Assembly: GCF_007750395.1 (NCBI RefSeq)
Contig: NZ_CP036281.1
Coordinates: 5,231,001 to 5,295,000 of the forward strand
DNA from: Polystyrenella longa
Lineage (GTDB): Bacteria > Planctomycetota > Planctomycetia > Planctomycetales > Planctomycetaceae
Direction of reading: 5' to 3'
Length of the DNA: 64,000 nucleotides
Shown here: positions 25,591 through 32,234 of the stretch, piece by piece
Layout of the letters: every line of letters begins with the position of its first letter
Position numbering within the stretch: the stretch's first letter is position 1
Program-made: the position numbers and the translations under genes
Notes under the pieces: model-generated
Databases searched by the model: none
What the model was told of the DNA's origin: nothing
The model's input: the letters and a program-made list of their open reading frames with translations, nothing else

Positions 25591-25787
25591 TGTGCGCGGT
25601 GGGGTACAGCACCTTTTTCCGGCCAACAACCCTCAGAACTCTTTCTATATCTAGTTAGAGTGGAGCATTTGTTCGTTTAAATGTAAGCTGCCTTACAGAA
25701 GAGAACGGCTTCAATGCCGATAATGAGAAGAGTGGAACAGGTAGCTTCACGCACGAAGTGAACAAAGGGTTAGTTCAAGGCTGGGTT

Positions 25788-26252
25788 ATGAACGAGCAAG
25801 AAAAGATCAATTTTGAAAAACCGGCTCTCGACTGGCAAAATTGTCAGCAGGGTGAGATCGGTAAAGTTTCCTCATTTTTGAAGCGTCGGCGTCGTCGGCA
25901 TACCGTCAGCAGAGCAGTAACGGTGGGGGCCATTCTTCTGGCCGTCGGCGGGTTGGGCTGGTTTGCCTTGATTGGAAATGAGCCGGGTGGACGGCAAATC
26001 GCGGGTCTGCACTGCAACGAAGTTTTTGAGCATACGGATGAGCTTTTTCAGGGTGAATTGAACCCGGGTGCTGTTGATCAAATTACAGCGCACCTGGAAG
26101 CATGCCCTGGATGCGTGCTCCATATGGAAGAAGTTCGGGTCGAATTTGAAAATCGGACCGGTCAAAAGGCAAAATATCGATTTAACCCCGAACCCGAAGT
26201 CGCCGCCGAGGCTCATTTCGAGGGAGTGAGCCAACTGGTCAGCCTACGCTGA
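25788..26252 (+). CDS. Membrane protein with zf-HC2-like (anti-sigma-type) motif
   Basis: The ATG at 25788 is chosen over a GTG at 25758 because AAGG lies 7 bases upstream. The 154-residue product has a cytoplasmic N-terminus with an Arg-rich stretch (LKRRRRRHTVSR), one TM helix (about 45-63, AVTVGAILLAVGGLGWFALI), and a region with LHCNEVFEHTDELFQGELNP followed by HLEACPGC. The C...HxxxCxxC pattern matches the zinc-finger of anti-sigma factors (zf-HC2, ZAS). In typical anti-sigma factors this domain is N-terminal and cytoplasmic; here it follows the TM helix, so by the positive-inside rule it would face outside. No sigma gene is adjacent, so anti-sigma activity is doubtful. It may instead be a redox or metal-binding surface domain. 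Confidence 0.65.
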   Translation: MNEQEKINFEKPALDWQNCQQGEIGKVSSFLKRRRRRHTVSRAVTVGAILLAVGGLGWFALIGNEPGGRQIAGLHCNEVFEHTDELFQGELNPGAVDQITAHLEACPGCVLHMEEVRVEFENRTGQKAKYRFNPEPEVAAEAHFEGVSQLVSLR

Positions 26253-26392
26253 ACATGGCCCTTGCTGAGACTATCGACTTGACCGTATTCTGGATCAGTT
26301 GTATAGTTGGACCCGTACAGGGTGGTTTTAGCCATTCTGTCAAAATCAGAACGCTAGCCAAAATCTTTTCATCAGATTGAACTGAAATCGAA

Positions 26393-26455
26393 ATGACAGG
26401 CATCTTCCTACTGAACCTGCTACTATTAGCCCCTTCCGGAGACGGACGGTCTTAG
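26393..26455 (+). CDS. leuL: Leucine-rich leader peptide of leuA (attenuator)
   Basis: This 20-codon ORF starts with ATG at 26393 and ends with TAG at 26453-26455. It encodes M-T-G-I-F-L-L-N-L-L-L-L-A-P-S-G-D-G-R-S. Six of 20 codons are Leu, including four in a row (CTG CTA CTA TTA at 26417-26428), and several are codons seldom used in nearby genes. It lies 215 bases upstream of leuA, immediately before an intrinsic terminator. The ribosome binding site is weak. Its position and composition match leader peptides of ribosome-mediated attenuation, in which low charged Leu-tRNA stalls the ribosome at the Leu codons. The symbol follows the enterobacterial name and is by analogy, since no sequence homology was tested. 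Confidence 0.8.
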   Translation: MTGIFLLNLLLLAPSGDGRS

Positions 26456-26530
26456 GTTCAATGGATACTGCCTTTCCAGTATAAACTAAAGCCCTGAGGT
26501 CCCCGTTGATCTCAGGGCTTTTTTTGTTTT
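26413..26530 (+). promoter_or_regulatory. Leucine attenuator: mutually exclusive hairpins
   Basis: Three competing pairings can be read. Region 1 (GAACCT, 26413-26418, overlapping the Leu codons) pairs perfectly with region 2 (AGGTTC, 26454-26459). Region 2 extended (GGTCTTAGG, 26448-26456) pairs with region 3 (CCTGAGGTC, 26493-26501) over nine contiguous pairs, three of them G-U. Region 3 is also the 5' arm of the terminator. A ribosome stalled on Leu codons masks region 1, freeing region 2 to hold region 3 and prevent termination. A ribosome reaching the TAG masks region 2, so the terminator forms. This is the classical attenuation logic, placed before leuA. Confidence 0.78.
26488..26530 (+). 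terminator. Attenuator terminator before leuA
   Basis: AAAGCCCTGAG (26488-26498) pairs with CTCAGGGCTTT (26511-26521) in a perfect 11-base stem, followed by seven T and a further T-rich tail. It lies about 140 bases before leuA and 240 bases after the zinc-finger protein gene. Confidence 0.92.
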
Positions 26531-26670
26531 GCGGGCGTGAGACACCCGAAGCCGATGAAGCTAGAGCCAATCGAGAACAGGTTGAACCGAATCTCGCGAC
26601 TTTTCATTCTTTGAAATCGACACTTTTACAACACTCTTCTATTTAACACTCTTCAAAGGGAGTCCCAGCT

Positions 26671-28221
26671 ATGTCGGGTGATATTGTCACCATCTTCGAC
26701 ACCACTTTGCGTGACGGCGAACAATCTCCGGGTTGCAGTATGAATACTGCCGAAAAACTGGAAATCGCCAAAGCGCTGGTTGAGCTGGGGGTCGACGTAA
26801 TGGAAGCCGGATTCCCGATTGCCTCTCCCGGCGACTTTGAGGCGGTCAGTCAAATCGCCCAGCAATATGGCGACCGAACCACCATCTGTGCGTTAGCCCG
26901 TTGCCGTAAGGAAGACATCGACCGAGCGTGGGAAGCGATTAAACATGCCGAGAAAAAACGGATCCATGTTTTCCTCGCCACGAGCGCTATCCATCGCGAG
27001 CATAAACTCAAGATGACCAAAGAAGACATCATCCAACGTGCTGTCGAGATGGTGAAACGGGCCGCCGGGTATTGTCAGGATGTGGAGTTCTCTCCAGAAG
27101 ATGCTGTCCGCACGGAACTCGACTTTCTCACCGAAGTTGTCGAACGCGCTATCGAAGCGGGGGCGACGACAGTCAACATTCCGGACACAGTCGGTTACGC
27201 TGTTCCCAGCCAATATTACAACTGCATTCGACACCTCAAAGAGAACGTCCGGAATATCGAGAAGGCCGTCATCAGCACACACTGTCACGATGACCTGGGC
27301 ATGGCCGTTTCCAATAGCCTTGCTGCCGTCGAAGCGGGTGCACGGCAGATTGAATGTACGATCAACGGTATCGGTGAACGAGCGGGGAACGCCGCGCTCG
27401 AAGAAGTCGTTATGGCACTTCGCACCCGTAGCGAGTTCTATAAATGTTCCACGAACATCGACACCAAACGCCTCTATCCAACATCGCATCTCTTAACGAC
27501 GATCACCGGTATGAAAGTGCAGCGGAACAAAGCGATCGTCGGTCGCAATGCGTTCGCTCACGAGTCGGGCATTCATCAACACGGAATGTTGCAGCACAGT
27601 GAGACGTACGAGATCATGAAACCGGAGGACGTCGGTTACCGGGGAACGAGTCTTGTTCTCGGGAAACATAGTGGCCGACATGCCTTTCGCAACCGGCTGC
27701 AGGAACTTGGCTATGAGCTCGACGACAGCGCCTTCCAGCGAGTCTTCCAGGACTTCATAAACCTGGCCGACAAAAAGAAAGAAGTCTACGATGCTGACAT
27801 CGTCGCATTAATTGAAAACCAGTTGGGCGACACGGTCGACCCCTGGAAGATGGTCAGCTTCCACACTTCGGCTGGTTCAGGAAATATTCCTACAGCCACG
27901 ATCCAACTCGAAGATGCTGAAGGCAAAGTTCACTGCGACGCCGCAACAGGCGACGGTCCGGTGGACGCGGTCTTCTGGGCACTCGAGCGCATCACGGGGA
28001 TTGCAGCCAGCCTGCAGGATTACCAGGTTCGCTCGGTCTCTCACGGTAAAGACGCCCTCGGGGAAGTCGATGTTGAAATCATCGTCGGTGACCGCTCCTA
28101 CCATGGTAAAGGCGTCAGCACCGACATCATCGAAGCGAGTGCCCGTGCTTACCTGAAAGCCCTGTGCCGCTTCGAACAACAACGGTTGAACGACAAACCG
28201 GCAGTGATTGAGGCCCCGTAA
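26671..28221 (+). CDS. leuA: 2-isopropylmalate synthase
   Basis: This 516-residue enzyme catalyses the first committed step of leucine synthesis, condensing acetyl-CoA with 2-oxoisovalerate. The DRE-TIM barrel motifs are present: FDTTLRDGEQSPG (metal- and substrate-binding RD), VFLATSAIHREHKL, STHCHDDLGMAVSNSL (HxH metal ligands) and ECTINGIGERAGNAALEE. GRNAFAHESGIHQHG follows, and the C-terminal LeuA dimer domain (from about 390), which binds the leucine feedback inhibitor, is complete. Length fits the LeuA type I group. AAGGGAG lies about 10 bases before the ATG. Upstream lies a leucine leader peptide and terminator, so transcription probably responds to Leu-tRNA charging on top of allosteric inhibition. 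Confidence 0.96.
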   Translation: MSGDIVTIFDTTLRDGEQSPGCSMNTAEKLEIAKALVELGVDVMEAGFPIASPGDFEAVSQIAQQYGDRTTICALARCRKEDIDRAWEAIKHAEKKRIHVFLATSAIHREHKLKMTKEDIIQRAVEMVKRAAGYCQDVEFSPEDAVRTELDFLTEVVERAIEAGATTVNIPDTVGYAVPSQYYNCIRHLKENVRNIEKAVISTHCHDDLGMAVSNSLAAVEAGARQIECTINGIGERAGNAALEEVVMALRTRSEFYKCSTNIDTKRLYPTSHLLTTITGMKVQRNKAIVGRNAFAHESGIHQHGMLQHSETYEIMKPEDVGYRGTSLVLGKHSGRHAFRNRLQELGYELDDSAFQRVFQDFINLADKKKEVYDADIVALIENQLGDTVDPWKMVSFHTSAGSGNIPTATIQLEDAEGKVHCDAATGDGPVDAVFWALERITGIAASLQDYQVRSVSHGKDALGEVDVEIIVGDRSYHGKGVSTDIIEASARAYLKALCRFEQQRLNDKPAVIEAP

Positions 28222-28503: not shown

Positions 28504-30699
28504 TTAGTGCCGTGCCTCGCGCTGTCCCAACAGCTCTTTGATCTCCCGAACATCGTTCCGGAGATCGCGGATTTGTTCGTGCAGTTCCTTCATTTCGTCG
28601 AGGAGATGTTTCATCGCATTAGAATCGGGGCGTGGCGGATGCATTTCACGCTCCAATTCTTGTACCATCCGTTCGGTCCGTTCCCATAGTTCACGAGATT
28701 GTTCGACTTCTCCTGCGCTAGAGAGAAGCACTGCGGCTTCGCGTAACTGTTTGATGCGAGCTAACTGCTTGTCTCGTTCTCGCGTCACGACTGGACCGAA
28801 AATAGGGCTTTCACTATTTATGCCAAAACCTGCTTCGGGTGAGGAGCTCGACTGGGCCCCAGAAAACTCTTGAGTGCCGAGAGCCGGTTTTTGCTTCAAA
28901 CCTGCCACATTTCCGATACCTTTATCAGAGTGAAAGTATTCCTCTGCTTCCCGGTTGTTTCCCTCCTTGAATTCAAAAGCTGTTTCTTTCACATTTTGAA
29001 TGACGGATTGAGTGGTTGGTTCCGCGTTATCTTGAGACTCAGAAATCCTTTTTATCTCAATCAACTTTTGTTCAACATCATCCAATTCTGATTGTAGATT
29101 TTTTATGAATTTGTTGCGGTCTTTTTCATAAGATTGACCACCAGATTCCCCTCGGAGTTCATTGATGCGGGTGAGGATATTAGCTTTTCTGAATTGAAGG
29201 ACGTCCTGCTGGGTCTCAAAGAGCCGCAGATTCGCATCAATTTCACTCAGCTTGAGATCTGATTTTCCACCAATATTACTCGAAACCGCATTTAACAGGT
29301 TCTGAACTGGGAGAGGAATGTCTCCCAGTTCAAGCTTGAGTTCATCGCCTGCTTTCTGAAGGTCTTGCGTTCTAATCTGTCCATACAGATACTCTCGCAT
29401 CAATTTCAGCGCCTCATCACCAATCGCAAGGATTTCTTTATCTCCGTGTCGCAACTTACTGAGCATCGAGTATTTACTTTGAATTCGTTCCTGCAATGAA
29501 GCCCAGGTGAACCGGTCGTCGTTGAACAAGATTACCATATCAGGATGAATCTCCTTTGCCATCCCACCAAAAGGCAAAGGGATCATCACAGCCGGTGGCT
29601 GTTCGTCGAGCGGAAGTTTCTGTTCTTCCTCTTCGACATTCCCAAATACGATTTCTCCGTAAACACCACTTTCGCTGTTTACACCGACACCACATAAGAC
29701 CTGGGAACCGCTACTGTCAATCACGTTAGACATCTTCAAGTTTCGAACTGGATTTGCATCGTCGTCGAGTAGGAGCTCTTCCGTTGTTTTCACAAAACTG
29801 TCAGAGGACTTCGACTTATTCGGTTTTGTATGCACGGCTTCTCCAGAACCGTCAATCATTTCGACCTCGGGAACCTCGACTGCGACCATTGTTTCCACAT
29901 CCACGTGTCTAATAATGAGTGCAGATAGCGAATCCTGGATGAGCTCATCTAAGCTTTTTATTAAACTTTGTCGACGATCTTCCAGCGTCCCAACTGAATC
30001 AGAATCATCTTCTGCCATTTGGTTTGAAAGTCCATCGATCAACGAATGTAAACGCTGAATCATTTCTCCGTTTTCAGTGTTGTAGTGCGACTGGTTGTTC
30101 TCACGGTTCCTATCAACATCTGCGATAACTTTTTTCATAGATTCCGTTAGATCAGTTTGATCCAACTTGAGTAGCTGGTTTACCTTTACTACGCCCTGAG
30201 ATTTAATGTGAAATAAAACTAGATTTTCGACACCGACACGATCTACAAGGGTAGCCTTTAATTTTTTAACGTTAGATCGCGTAGGGTAATCCTTTATTGG
30301 CCCCGACTCCAGTCGTGCCGATATCTCTGATATCGAGCCCCGAAGGGAACTTGCTAACTCCTCCCAGAGATAAATTTCTCCGCCGATCTTGATAGCGAGA
30401 TGATCGTTGATTCTAACCTGAGTAACGCGTTCAACTACAGGCTTATAGATGGCAGCAATACTCGACTCTTTAACGCGGTGAAGATTGACTTCGGACTGCA
30501 GGTCCTCGCTCTCTTCATCCAATAAGCTTTCGGCTTTGACTATTTCCTGTCGAGATTCAATACCGATTATTGGGTCCTCCTCAACAACCGCATCAAAGTC
30601 CTGTCCCGGAGCAATTTGAGGTTGGAAAGTGATCCTTGTACCCTGAAGGACGCTTAGAGAGATTACGATCAACAATAAAAACAGGTAAAACCGTTTCAT
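28504..30699 (-). CDS. Large exported coiled-coil protein, downstream of blaR1-like gene
   Basis: This 731-residue protein starts with a hydrophobic N-terminus (MKRFYLFLLLIVISLSVLQG), either a signal peptide or a membrane anchor. The rest is charged and mostly helical, with heptad-like segments at about 480-570 (SELDDVEQKLIEIKRISE) and 650-731 (ELHEQIRDLRNDVREIKELLG). Two short motifs of similar form occur, GVGVNSESGVYG near 335 and GFGINSESPIFG near 624. No catalytic domain was recognised. It is the last gene of a blaI-blaR1-like operon, 44 bases after the peptidase gene. Such third genes in planctomycete M56 operons may be the sensed or cleaved partner, which is an inference. Confidence 0.7.
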   Translation of the reverse strand: MKRFYLFLLLIVISLSVLQGTRITFQPQIAPGQDFDAVVEEDPIIGIESRQEIVKAESLLDEESEDLQSEVNLHRVKESSIAAIYKPVVERVTQVRINDHLAIKIGGEIYLWEELASSLRGSISEISARLESGPIKDYPTRSNVKKLKATLVDRVGVENLVLFHIKSQGVVKVNQLLKLDQTDLTESMKKVIADVDRNRENNQSHYNTENGEMIQRLHSLIDGLSNQMAEDDSDSVGTLEDRRQSLIKSLDELIQDSLSALIIRHVDVETMVAVEVPEVEMIDGSGEAVHTKPNKSKSSDSFVKTTEELLLDDDANPVRNLKMSNVIDSSGSQVLCGVGVNSESGVYGEIVFGNVEEEEQKLPLDEQPPAVMIPLPFGGMAKEIHPDMVILFNDDRFTWASLQERIQSKYSMLSKLRHGDKEILAIGDEALKLMREYLYGQIRTQDLQKAGDELKLELGDIPLPVQNLLNAVSSNIGGKSDLKLSEIDANLRLFETQQDVLQFRKANILTRINELRGESGGQSYEKDRNKFIKNLQSELDDVEQKLIEIKRISESQDNAEPTTQSVIQNVKETAFEFKEGNNREAEEYFHSDKGIGNVAGLKQKPALGTQEFSGAQSSSSPEAGFGINSESPIFGPVVTRERDKQLARIKQLREAAVLLSSAGEVEQSRELWERTERMVQELEREMHPPRPDSNAMKHLLDEMKELHEQIRDLRNDVREIKELLGQREARH

Positions 30700-30743: not shown

Positions 30744-32234
30744 TCAGTTCGAAAGATTACTCAATACATCCCATCGACGCTGCAACTCTTCCAAGCGTTG
30801 GTTGAGTTCTTCCGTTTGTTGATGAACTTTTTCTGTGTGCTCCCGTACGGCAGGCGGTTGTGTTTGTGATAAGTTATTGATCTCTGCCGCCTCAGCATGA
30901 AGCAAGTTTGCTTCAGTACGGATTTGCTGAAGGTATTCGCTGACCGCGGTATTGAGCACAGTCTCGTCCTGCTGAACATCGTCGGACTGAGTCTGGGTTT
31001 GGGTCACCTTCAGACTGGATGTTTCCGCTGAAAGTTCGATCGTAGGCATGACAAACAGAAGTATTGCCAGCGTTCCCAGACAGGCAATACAAGCGAGACG
31101 GTGCTGCCAGCGAGAAGGCGGAACGAGGCCGTCGTCTTCGAGAAGCTGTTCTACGCGTCTGGTGAGTTGACTGCCTCCCGATCCAGTGACTGTTAACACC
31201 AACGGAACAGGCCGAGTGCGGGTGCGACTGGCGATAGAAGTCAGCGAACGGGCGAGAGCAAATCGGTCGATCCCGTGAGACAGAGCCCAGGCATCGCACA
31301 TCGATTCGGCCGCGCGTTGCCATTCGCGATGCGCAACGAAGTTCAATGGCTGGAATGGGCAGAGCCAGCAGAGGATGCGGCCCAACCAGAGCCAACTGAT
31401 GTCATGCCGAACGAGATGAGCCAGTTCATGTGCAAGTACGGCTTCAAGTTCGTCGTGCGACAACTCGTCTTCGATCCCGAGAGGCAAGAGAATCTGACCA
31501 CGCCGAAAACCAGTCGCAGCCGGTTCCGTAATTTCTTCAAGCTGATACAAATGAACCAATCTGCGAACGTGACTCCGCTTCAGTAAGTCGTGGAGCAATT
31601 CGAAAAGGGGGCCTTCGGTAAGCGGTTGCGACTTTCTCAATGCTCTGTTGAGGTACGAATAACTGGCGAGTAGATGGACGATTCCCCAAAGTCCAAGTCC
31701 ACCGATCAACAGGCAAACAGCCCAGAGAAGGTTCATCCCCGTGGAGAACCATGCCGAGTAGCCAAGGGGCAACACCGGCAGCGACGCACCTTCATCGGAG
31801 TCATTGTCATTGTCATTGATCAAGTCCAGTTCGACTGGCAATTTCGTGAGATTGCCTGAGGCGATTTCAGGACCGTCATCGTTGATAAGGGTTTCCCCCT
31901 GTTCACGTACTCTCTCTCCATCGAAATGGTTGGAAAGAGAGGTCAACTCTTGATCCGGCAGAGGATACGAAGGTTTCCGCTCCTCGACTGTTTCCAGGAC
32001 GAAGGCGCTAAGCAACCGCTCAGGTTCAATTTCCCAGCGTTGGGTCGTTATGGCTGTCTGGAGACAAACCGTGATTAGCGGTGCGATCGCGGCGATCTTC
32101 CAAACCGTTTCTCTAATAGCAGGATTTCTTGCCATACTCAGTCGTAAAATGAGCCATGCCAGCCCGAGCGTAAACGTCGAATGCAGTAGATAGGTCAGGA
32201 GCAGTGAACCGGCGAAGTAGAATTCAGTCGTCAC
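30744..32234 (-). CDS. BlaR1/MecR1-family M56 membrane metallopeptidase
   Basis: This 496-residue protein has TM segments near 10-30, 40-60 and 160-185, then a cytoplasmic M56 peptidase domain with the gluzincin motif HELAH (about 268-272) and the downstream E in AAESMCDAWAL that completes the zinc site. A further TM helix at about 380-400 (IACLGTLAILLFVM) leads to an outer C-terminal part. In true BlaR1 that part is a penicillin-binding sensor of about 250 residues; here it is only about 95 residues of coiled coil rich in Gln and Glu. A beta-lactam is therefore not the likely signal. The start overlaps the end of the blaI-like gene by 11 bases, showing translational coupling. Confidence 0.9.
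   Translation of the reverse strand: MTTEFYFAGSLLLTYLLHSTFTLGLAWLILRLSMARNPAIRETVWKIAAIAPLITVCLQTAITTQRWEIEPERLLSAFVLETVEERKPSYPLPDQELTSLSNHFDGERVREQGETLINDDGPEIASGNLTKLPVELDLINDNDNDSDEGASLPVLPLGYSAWFSTGMNLLWAVCLLIGGLGLWGIVHLLASYSYLNRALRKSQPLTEGPLFELLHDLLKRSHVRRLVHLYQLEEITEPAATGFRRGQILLPLGIEDELSHDELEAVLAHELAHLVRHDISWLWLGRILCWLCPFQPLNFVAHREWQRAAESMCDAWALSHGIDRFALARSLTSIASRTRTRPVPLVLTVTGSGGSQLTRRVEQLLEDDGLVPPSRWQHRLACIACLGTLAILLFVMPTIELSAETSSLKVTQTQTQSDDVQQDETVLNTAVSEYLQQIRTEANLLHAEAAEINNLSQTQPPAVREHTEKVHQQTEELNQRLEELQRRWDVLSNLSN

Follow-up and report, generated by a model that had tools for sequence, protein, structure and literature searches.

The leuL element of Escherichia coli and Salmonella consists of a Leu-rich leader with consecutive Leu codons, CUA among them, alternative RNA pairings between neighboring regions (1:2, 2:3, and 3:4), and an intrinsic terminator. 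The 64-kb window analyzed here, a 64,000-nucleotide stretch of the Polystyrenella longa genome, very probably contains a classical ribosome-mediated transcription attenuator that senses leucyl-tRNA and lies upstream of leuA, the gene for 2-isopropylmalate synthase. It would work in the same way as leuL and in the same pathway, although in a different phylum and in front of a leuA that stands alone rather than in an operon. A further difference is that the leader stop codon of the window lies inside region 2, with its UAGG forming part of the antiterminator; leuL is not known to have such an arrangement. A leucine attenuator with a leader peptide in front of leuA had been proposed in an earlier, sequence-only reading of this DNA, and conservation in relatives, complementarity of the pairing regions, codon bias, and modeled folding now all lend support to that proposal.

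Other described systems are less similar. The LEU element of Actinobacteria (PMC1262725; what is said here of cited articles refers to the available portions of their text) likewise lies upstream of leuA and includes a short open reading frame (ORF) containing a Leu codon run, but it is defined by pairing of this run with the Shine-Dalgarno box of leuA and has no terminator, whereas the device in the window has a strong terminator well before leuA. Naville and Gautheret (PMC2965389) also used comparative genomics to survey leader ORFs followed by premature terminators; according to that survey, leader-peptide systems were known in 2010 in Proteobacteria and Actinobacteria (ermC apart), to which it added Firmicutes, and the available part of its main text mentions neither planctomyc-, Rhodopirellula, nor leuA. 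Leader ORFs in Planctomycetes were counted by distance in PMC4833913, the available portions of which mention neither leucine nor leuA. Among the open-licence matches listed, none describes leader attenuation of leuA or leucine synthesis in planctomycetes; a mention in the attenuation survey of Lopatovskaya 2010 (PubMed 20198868) is possible.

The leader ORF of the window begins with an ATG at 26393 and runs for 20 codons to a TAG at 26453-26455. Six of the 20 codons specify Leu (CTA 26408, CTG 26411, CTG 26417, CTA 26420, CTA 26423, and TTA 26426), the last four of them being consecutive, which agrees base for base with the sequence-only reading. The three alternative pairings and the perfect 11-base terminator that it listed were likewise all found at the positions given. 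Pairing 1:2 joins GAACCT at 26413-26418 with AGGTTC at 26454-26459, and by eye this helix is longer (TGAACCT with AGGTTCA). Pairing 2:3 joins GGTCTTAGG at 26448-26456 with CCTGAGGTC at 26493-26501, while the terminator arms, AAAGCCCTGAG at 26488-26498 and CTCAGGGCTTT at 26511-26521, form 11 Watson-Crick pairs, or 14 pairs if the inner ones are counted. The placement of the stop codon within region 2, also claimed earlier, is borne out by the coordinates (Table 1). An inverted repeat of the form CCTGAG-12-CTCAGGG occurs at one place in the window, where it matches on both strands, with 0.02 expected.

Table 1. Attenuator components, putative regulated gene, and promoter-like site, in window coordinates.
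Feature	Position	Strand	Basis or remark
Leader peptide ORF, MTGIFLLNLLLLAPSGDGRS then stop	26393..26455	+	sequence; conserved in relatives; regulatory Leu codons 26408-26428
Region 1, TGAACCT, within the Leu codon run	26412..26418	+	pairs with 26454-26460
Region 2, GACGGACGGTCTTAGGTTCA, leader stop codon inside	26441..26460	+	partner is region 1 or region 3
Region 3, CCTGAGGTCCCCGTTG, antiterminator 3' arm	26493..26508	+	overlaps terminator 5' arm
Intrinsic terminator hairpin (regions 3:4), then TTTTGTTTT to 26530	26488..26521	+	
leuA, 2-isopropylmalate synthase, putative regulated gene	26671..28221	+	NF002086 and TIGR00973 above cut-off; PF00682, PF08502
Sigma-70-like promoter, TTGACC-17-TATAGT	26279..26307	+	consensus match only, 10/12

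In the proposed mechanism, transcription would begin upstream of 26393 and a ribosome would translate the leader behind RNA polymerase. With ample charged tRNA-Leu, the ribosome would reach the UAG at 26453 and cover region 2, leaving 3:4 to pair as the terminator, and leuA would not be transcribed. When leucine is low, the ribosome would instead stall on CUG-CUA-CUA-UUA and cover region 1, so that the 2:3 antiterminator could form before region 4 is synthesized and leuA would be transcribed. If the leader were not translated at all, 1:2 would form and termination would prevail. The start of transcription, translation of the leader, and the response to leucine are parts of this model that we infer. 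Constrained folding of the RNA, with polymerase placed at 26508 and an assumed ribosome footprint of 30 nucleotides, is consistent with such a switch: 1:2 formed in the absence of a ribosome (13 pairs), 2:3 formed when the footprint covered one or the other of two Leu codons (14 pairs), and neither formed when it covered the UAG. The earlier statement that the pairings exclude one another as attenuation requires thus has a counterpart in the fold modeled to 26508, which switches as needed.

Conservation of this arrangement was assessed first within the family. A LeuA search gave a match in all 150 same-family genomes, with some matches limited to a fragment or to a more distant relative, and 90 loci (L002-L091) from 90 of the 150 genomes were picked and oriented by hand down the match list, with some skipped. 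An order-level sample of 61 genomes consisted entirely of members of this family. An automatic rule (a Leu ORF of 11-40 codons with a minimum of 4 Leu codons and a Leu content of 20% or more, its stop 15-55 nucleotides before a terminator) found leader and terminator upstream of leuA in 81 of the 90 loci, compared with 2 of 90 reverse complements and none in three sets of shuffles. Supplying six terminators by hand (L005, L006, L042, L077, L080, and L090) raises this number to 87. Of the three loci missed, L034 consists of masked DNA and L047 has, by eye, MTFNLLLQKLLLT and a stop followed by a hairpin. In the third, L081 (refetched as L376, G064), leader and terminator are displaced about 1.1 kb upstream of leuA and precede both leuA and an intervening open frame of about 276 codons (about 1,100 to 50 nucleotides upstream of leuA), an order that would place a two-gene unit under control of the attenuator.

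Leu is sparse in a few family leaders, such as that of L084. Under a stricter rule (at least 5 Leu in 8 codons within 450 nucleotides), a leader was found in 78 of 89 family loci, in no reverse complement, and in 1-3 shuffles; leader and terminator together were found in 72 of the 89 loci versus 0. Each of the 19 other residues reached this threshold in only 0-2 of the 89 loci, so the enrichment is for Leu alone. In the scanning scripts, TTG start codons counted as Leu, both in real sequences and in controls. The leaders of L002 and L004 differ by two synonymous and zero non-synonymous changes, and that of L003 is identical to that of L002.

The device extends to other families of the class, which were sampled with 80 leuA upstream regions from 15 other families of Planctomycetia. 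A leader was present in 54 of these 80 loci (reverse complements 0, shuffles 1), with other residues reaching the threshold in at most 5 (Arg), and 39 loci had leader plus terminator, a combination absent from reverse complements and shuffles. Named records with both include Stieleria tagensis (L110), Roseiconus nitratireducens (L116), and Rubripirellula sp. (L100), and additional loci of family f2 have a leader with a T-poor hairpin identified by eye. A Gemmataceae metagenome-assembled genome (L099) has a leader and, by eye, a hairpin. Its terminator type recurs in several f3 loci, and because L099 is titled Gemmataceae we infer that f3 probably corresponds to this family. In one f3 locus, L216, the ORF extends about 24 nucleotides past putative region 2, unlike that of the window, which stops inside this region. 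Pirellula-type leaders (L100, L107, L110, and L116) have GATGAGGGTTTG, or nearly so, opposite AAACCCGAGTC upstream of leuA; the helix between these 2 sequences, which by eye is broken where G-A mismatches occur in tandem, is possibly a conserved motif. Outside the class, 20 of the 27 matching genomes from the rest of the phylum were sampled, and leader plus terminator preceded leuA in 4 of 20 loci, the weak L265 among them. L266, L268, and L271 belong to non-class families and have a Leu-rich ORF and a terminator before leuA. The device may therefore predate the class or have arisen more than once.

Loci were aligned in two sets, A2 and A3, which hold 51 and 21 of 88 picked loci, with loci whose region 2 differed, near-identical rows, and the masked L034 left out. 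In A2 the terminator helix is paired in 95.7% of cells, 7 of its 10 pairs have changes on both sides, and, on each measure, no more than 2 of 500 shuffles did as well. The 2:3 helix is paired in 84.8% of A2 cells versus 20-67% in slid registers. Complementarity was also scored in 152 loci from 13 families, made up of 87 of the 90 family loci and 65 of the 80 class loci, a set that is not blind since class loci were kept only if a Leu run or by-eye motif was present and T-poor terminators were picked by eye for some of them. Region 2 pairs with region 3 of the same locus better than 95% of shuffles do in 98 of the 152 loci, where chance would give 7.6 if related loci were independent, which they are not. 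The 2 regions have changed together, as in GGTCTTAGG/CCTGAGACC, GGTTCCAGG/CCTGGAACC, GGGTGTTAGGG/CCCTAAGGCCC, and GGGCCTAGGGG/CCCCGAGGCCC, no example having more than one mismatch (GGGTGTTAGGG/CCCTAAGGCCC has one). The sequence-only reading had looked to relatives for conservation of the ORF and of the alternative pairings; the Leu ORF, the terminator, and 2:3 are indeed conserved there, while 1:2 has weaker support. This pattern suggests a leuA device found widely in the class, with Leu ORF, terminator, and pairing kept in other families by sequences that have diverged yet would still pair.

Codon choice provides another line of evidence. CTA makes up 23.5% of the 621 Leu codons in the 87 family leaders. 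In 30 of these loci it accounts for 0.3% of 929 Leu codons in leuA and 1.7% of 899 in the longest neighboring open frames, and in six genes of the window for 4% of 297. Leaders of other families have 20% CTA among 421 Leu codons, and CTA is absent from leuA in four named loci (L098, L099, L110, and L151). This bias suggests that ribosomes read the leader ORF and that tRNA charging is sensed. CUA was predicted to be the best control codon for leu in E. coli (PMC1183508), and changing three CUA codons to CUG in the Salmonella leader lowered its sensitivity (Carter 1986, cited in PMC1183508). Planctomycete leaders, with their CTA bias, independently exemplify the codon singled out by the E. coli prediction.

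A very unlikely alternative on which the codons bear directly is that the leader encodes an arrest peptide, whose nascent chain would bind leucine or another ligand and stall the ribosome without its codons sensing tRNA charge. TnaC is a known example of a nascent peptide that stalls the ribosome, in its case with tryptophan. Many family members share a C-terminal tail, (G/A)RS, that would fit such a peptide, but the tail overlaps region 2 and is thus explicable by RNA pairing, and other members end in LPS, GMA, STP, or GC. Since Leu codons persist while other residues vary, and since the rare CTA is enriched, reading of codons is the better explanation.

We give hardly any credence to the idea that the hairpin is the terminator of the upstream gene at 25758-26252 and that the Leu ORF arose by chance. 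This ORF does have the same orientation, with its end 140 nucleotides 5' of the leader. Across 30 loci, though, the longest upstream open frames (not all proven genes) lie on either strand and fall into 17 clusters without similarity, and the device precedes leuA despite this turnover; the element therefore belongs to leuA. The recurrence of leader plus terminator in 81-87 of 90 loci versus 2 of 90 reverse complements also argues against such a coincidence. Direct binding of leucine or uncharged tRNA-Leu by a riboswitch or T-box-like element, with the ORF incidental, is scarcely credible either, even though amino acid genes of other phyla are under T-box control, since Rfam families (leader, T-box, and riboswitch families included) have zero matches at gathering score in the 64-kb window and the leader region is little conserved outside the pairs and the Leu codons.

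The ribosome-mediated attenuator remains the explanation we favor, and several results count against it or limit its reach. The promoter-like site is poorly conserved, a site of at least 10/12 being found in 4 of 86 same-family loci (160 nucleotides searched, 0.5 expected). No leader reaches the threshold within 450 nucleotides in 26 of the 80 class loci; when the upstream DNA was extended to 3 kb for seven of these, five still lacked one, while two had a leader further upstream, one of these with a terminator. Some f3 leaders (L210, L216, and L222) run past putative region 2, as does that of L151, all four lying within 200 nucleotides 5' of leuA, and CTA makes up only 5% of leader Leu codons in f2 and 9% in f3. 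Changes on both sides of the 2:3 helix occur in 6 pairs of A2 versus 4.0 in shuffles, a value reached by 33 of 500, and this covariation exceeds that of shuffles by only a little because there is hardly any sequence variation in the A2 group. In the complementarity set, 54 of the 152 loci do not place 2:3 within the best 5% of shuffles, and support for 1:2 is modest, with 43 loci at this level. Duplexes formed across families match the stability of a locus's own duplex in a median of 16% of comparisons (21% for f1), and the evidence is therefore strong for many loci but not for every one. Full-length RNA folds to the terminator in each of the three cases modeled, that with a stalled ribosome included, so the choice would have to fall co-transcriptionally, with 2:3 formed before region 4 is made. 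The decision in known attenuators is likewise made co-transcriptionally.

Specificity was examined with covariance models and with other biosynthetic genes. Leu_leader is the name of one of the Rfam leader families. Twelve Rfam matches were obtained in 26200-26700 at E values up to 10, all below gathering score, the best being L10_leader (E 0.38). A covariance model built from A2 (R1) gave 12 matches over its own genome at the same limit: the leuA leader (E 6.6e-19), its terminator, matched on the opposite strand, and ten more at E 0.018 or weaker. The surroundings of two of these ten were viewed (L286 and L288), and the weak match L286 lies between convergent ORFs. We read this as one copy of the leuA-type leader in the genome, which is a reading and not a proof. 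In 25 genomes, a scan of hisG (23), ilvC (30, weak paralogue matches included), and trpE-type (30) loci for runs of H, L/V/I, and W, respectively, found no matching run with a terminator, some loci being cut by contig ends and two weak ilvC matches (L340 and L343) having been scanned in the wrong orientation. Runs alone numbered 0 forward versus 2 in reverse complement for H, 1 versus 8 for L/V/I, and 13 versus 8 for W. Given its leuL-like action, the lack of an Rfam match at gathering score in the window, and its differences from the LEU element, the device would represent a new and widespread family within a kind of control already known. It would extend leader-peptide attenuation of leucine synthesis to planctomycetes, account for the likely control of leuA, and identify a small ORF.

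A wider implication concerns the coupling of transcription and translation. We lean slightly toward the view that a ribosome-dependent leucine attenuator is widespread in Planctomycetia, including the Gemmataceae locus L099 and several f3 loci, and hence that transcription and translation are coupled physically in these organisms at least at leuA. Separation of the two processes has been reported for Gemmata obscuriglobus (Gottshall 2014, cited in PMC6212462), its extent being unclear and debated. Planctomycetota are not among the phyla classed as runaway that are listed in the available text of PMC13323073, and neither planctomycet nor Gemmata is mentioned in that of PMC7858274. If the attenuator reading is true, coupling at leuA falls within a group with reported spatial segregation and offers a genetic test of the segregation claim. 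The device needs a ribosome close behind the polymerase, and the debated separation in Gemmata and its relatives therefore becomes testable with reporters.

The source genome is a single contig of 6.13 Mb. The leuA product carries the LeuA_dimer allosteric domain (NCBIfam and Pfam), and 418 bases lie between the end of the same-strand upstream ORF (26252) and the leuA start. Since the next gene-like long ORF 3' of leuA (28504-30699) is on the opposite strand, leuA appears to stand alone in the window. The upstream ORF has one transmembrane-like stretch by eye and a weak similarity to the anti-sigma factor RsrA (E 3.3e-5, below cut-off). Further along, at 30744-32234 on the minus strand, the window contains a gene for a BlaR1-type M56 peptidase (PF05569).
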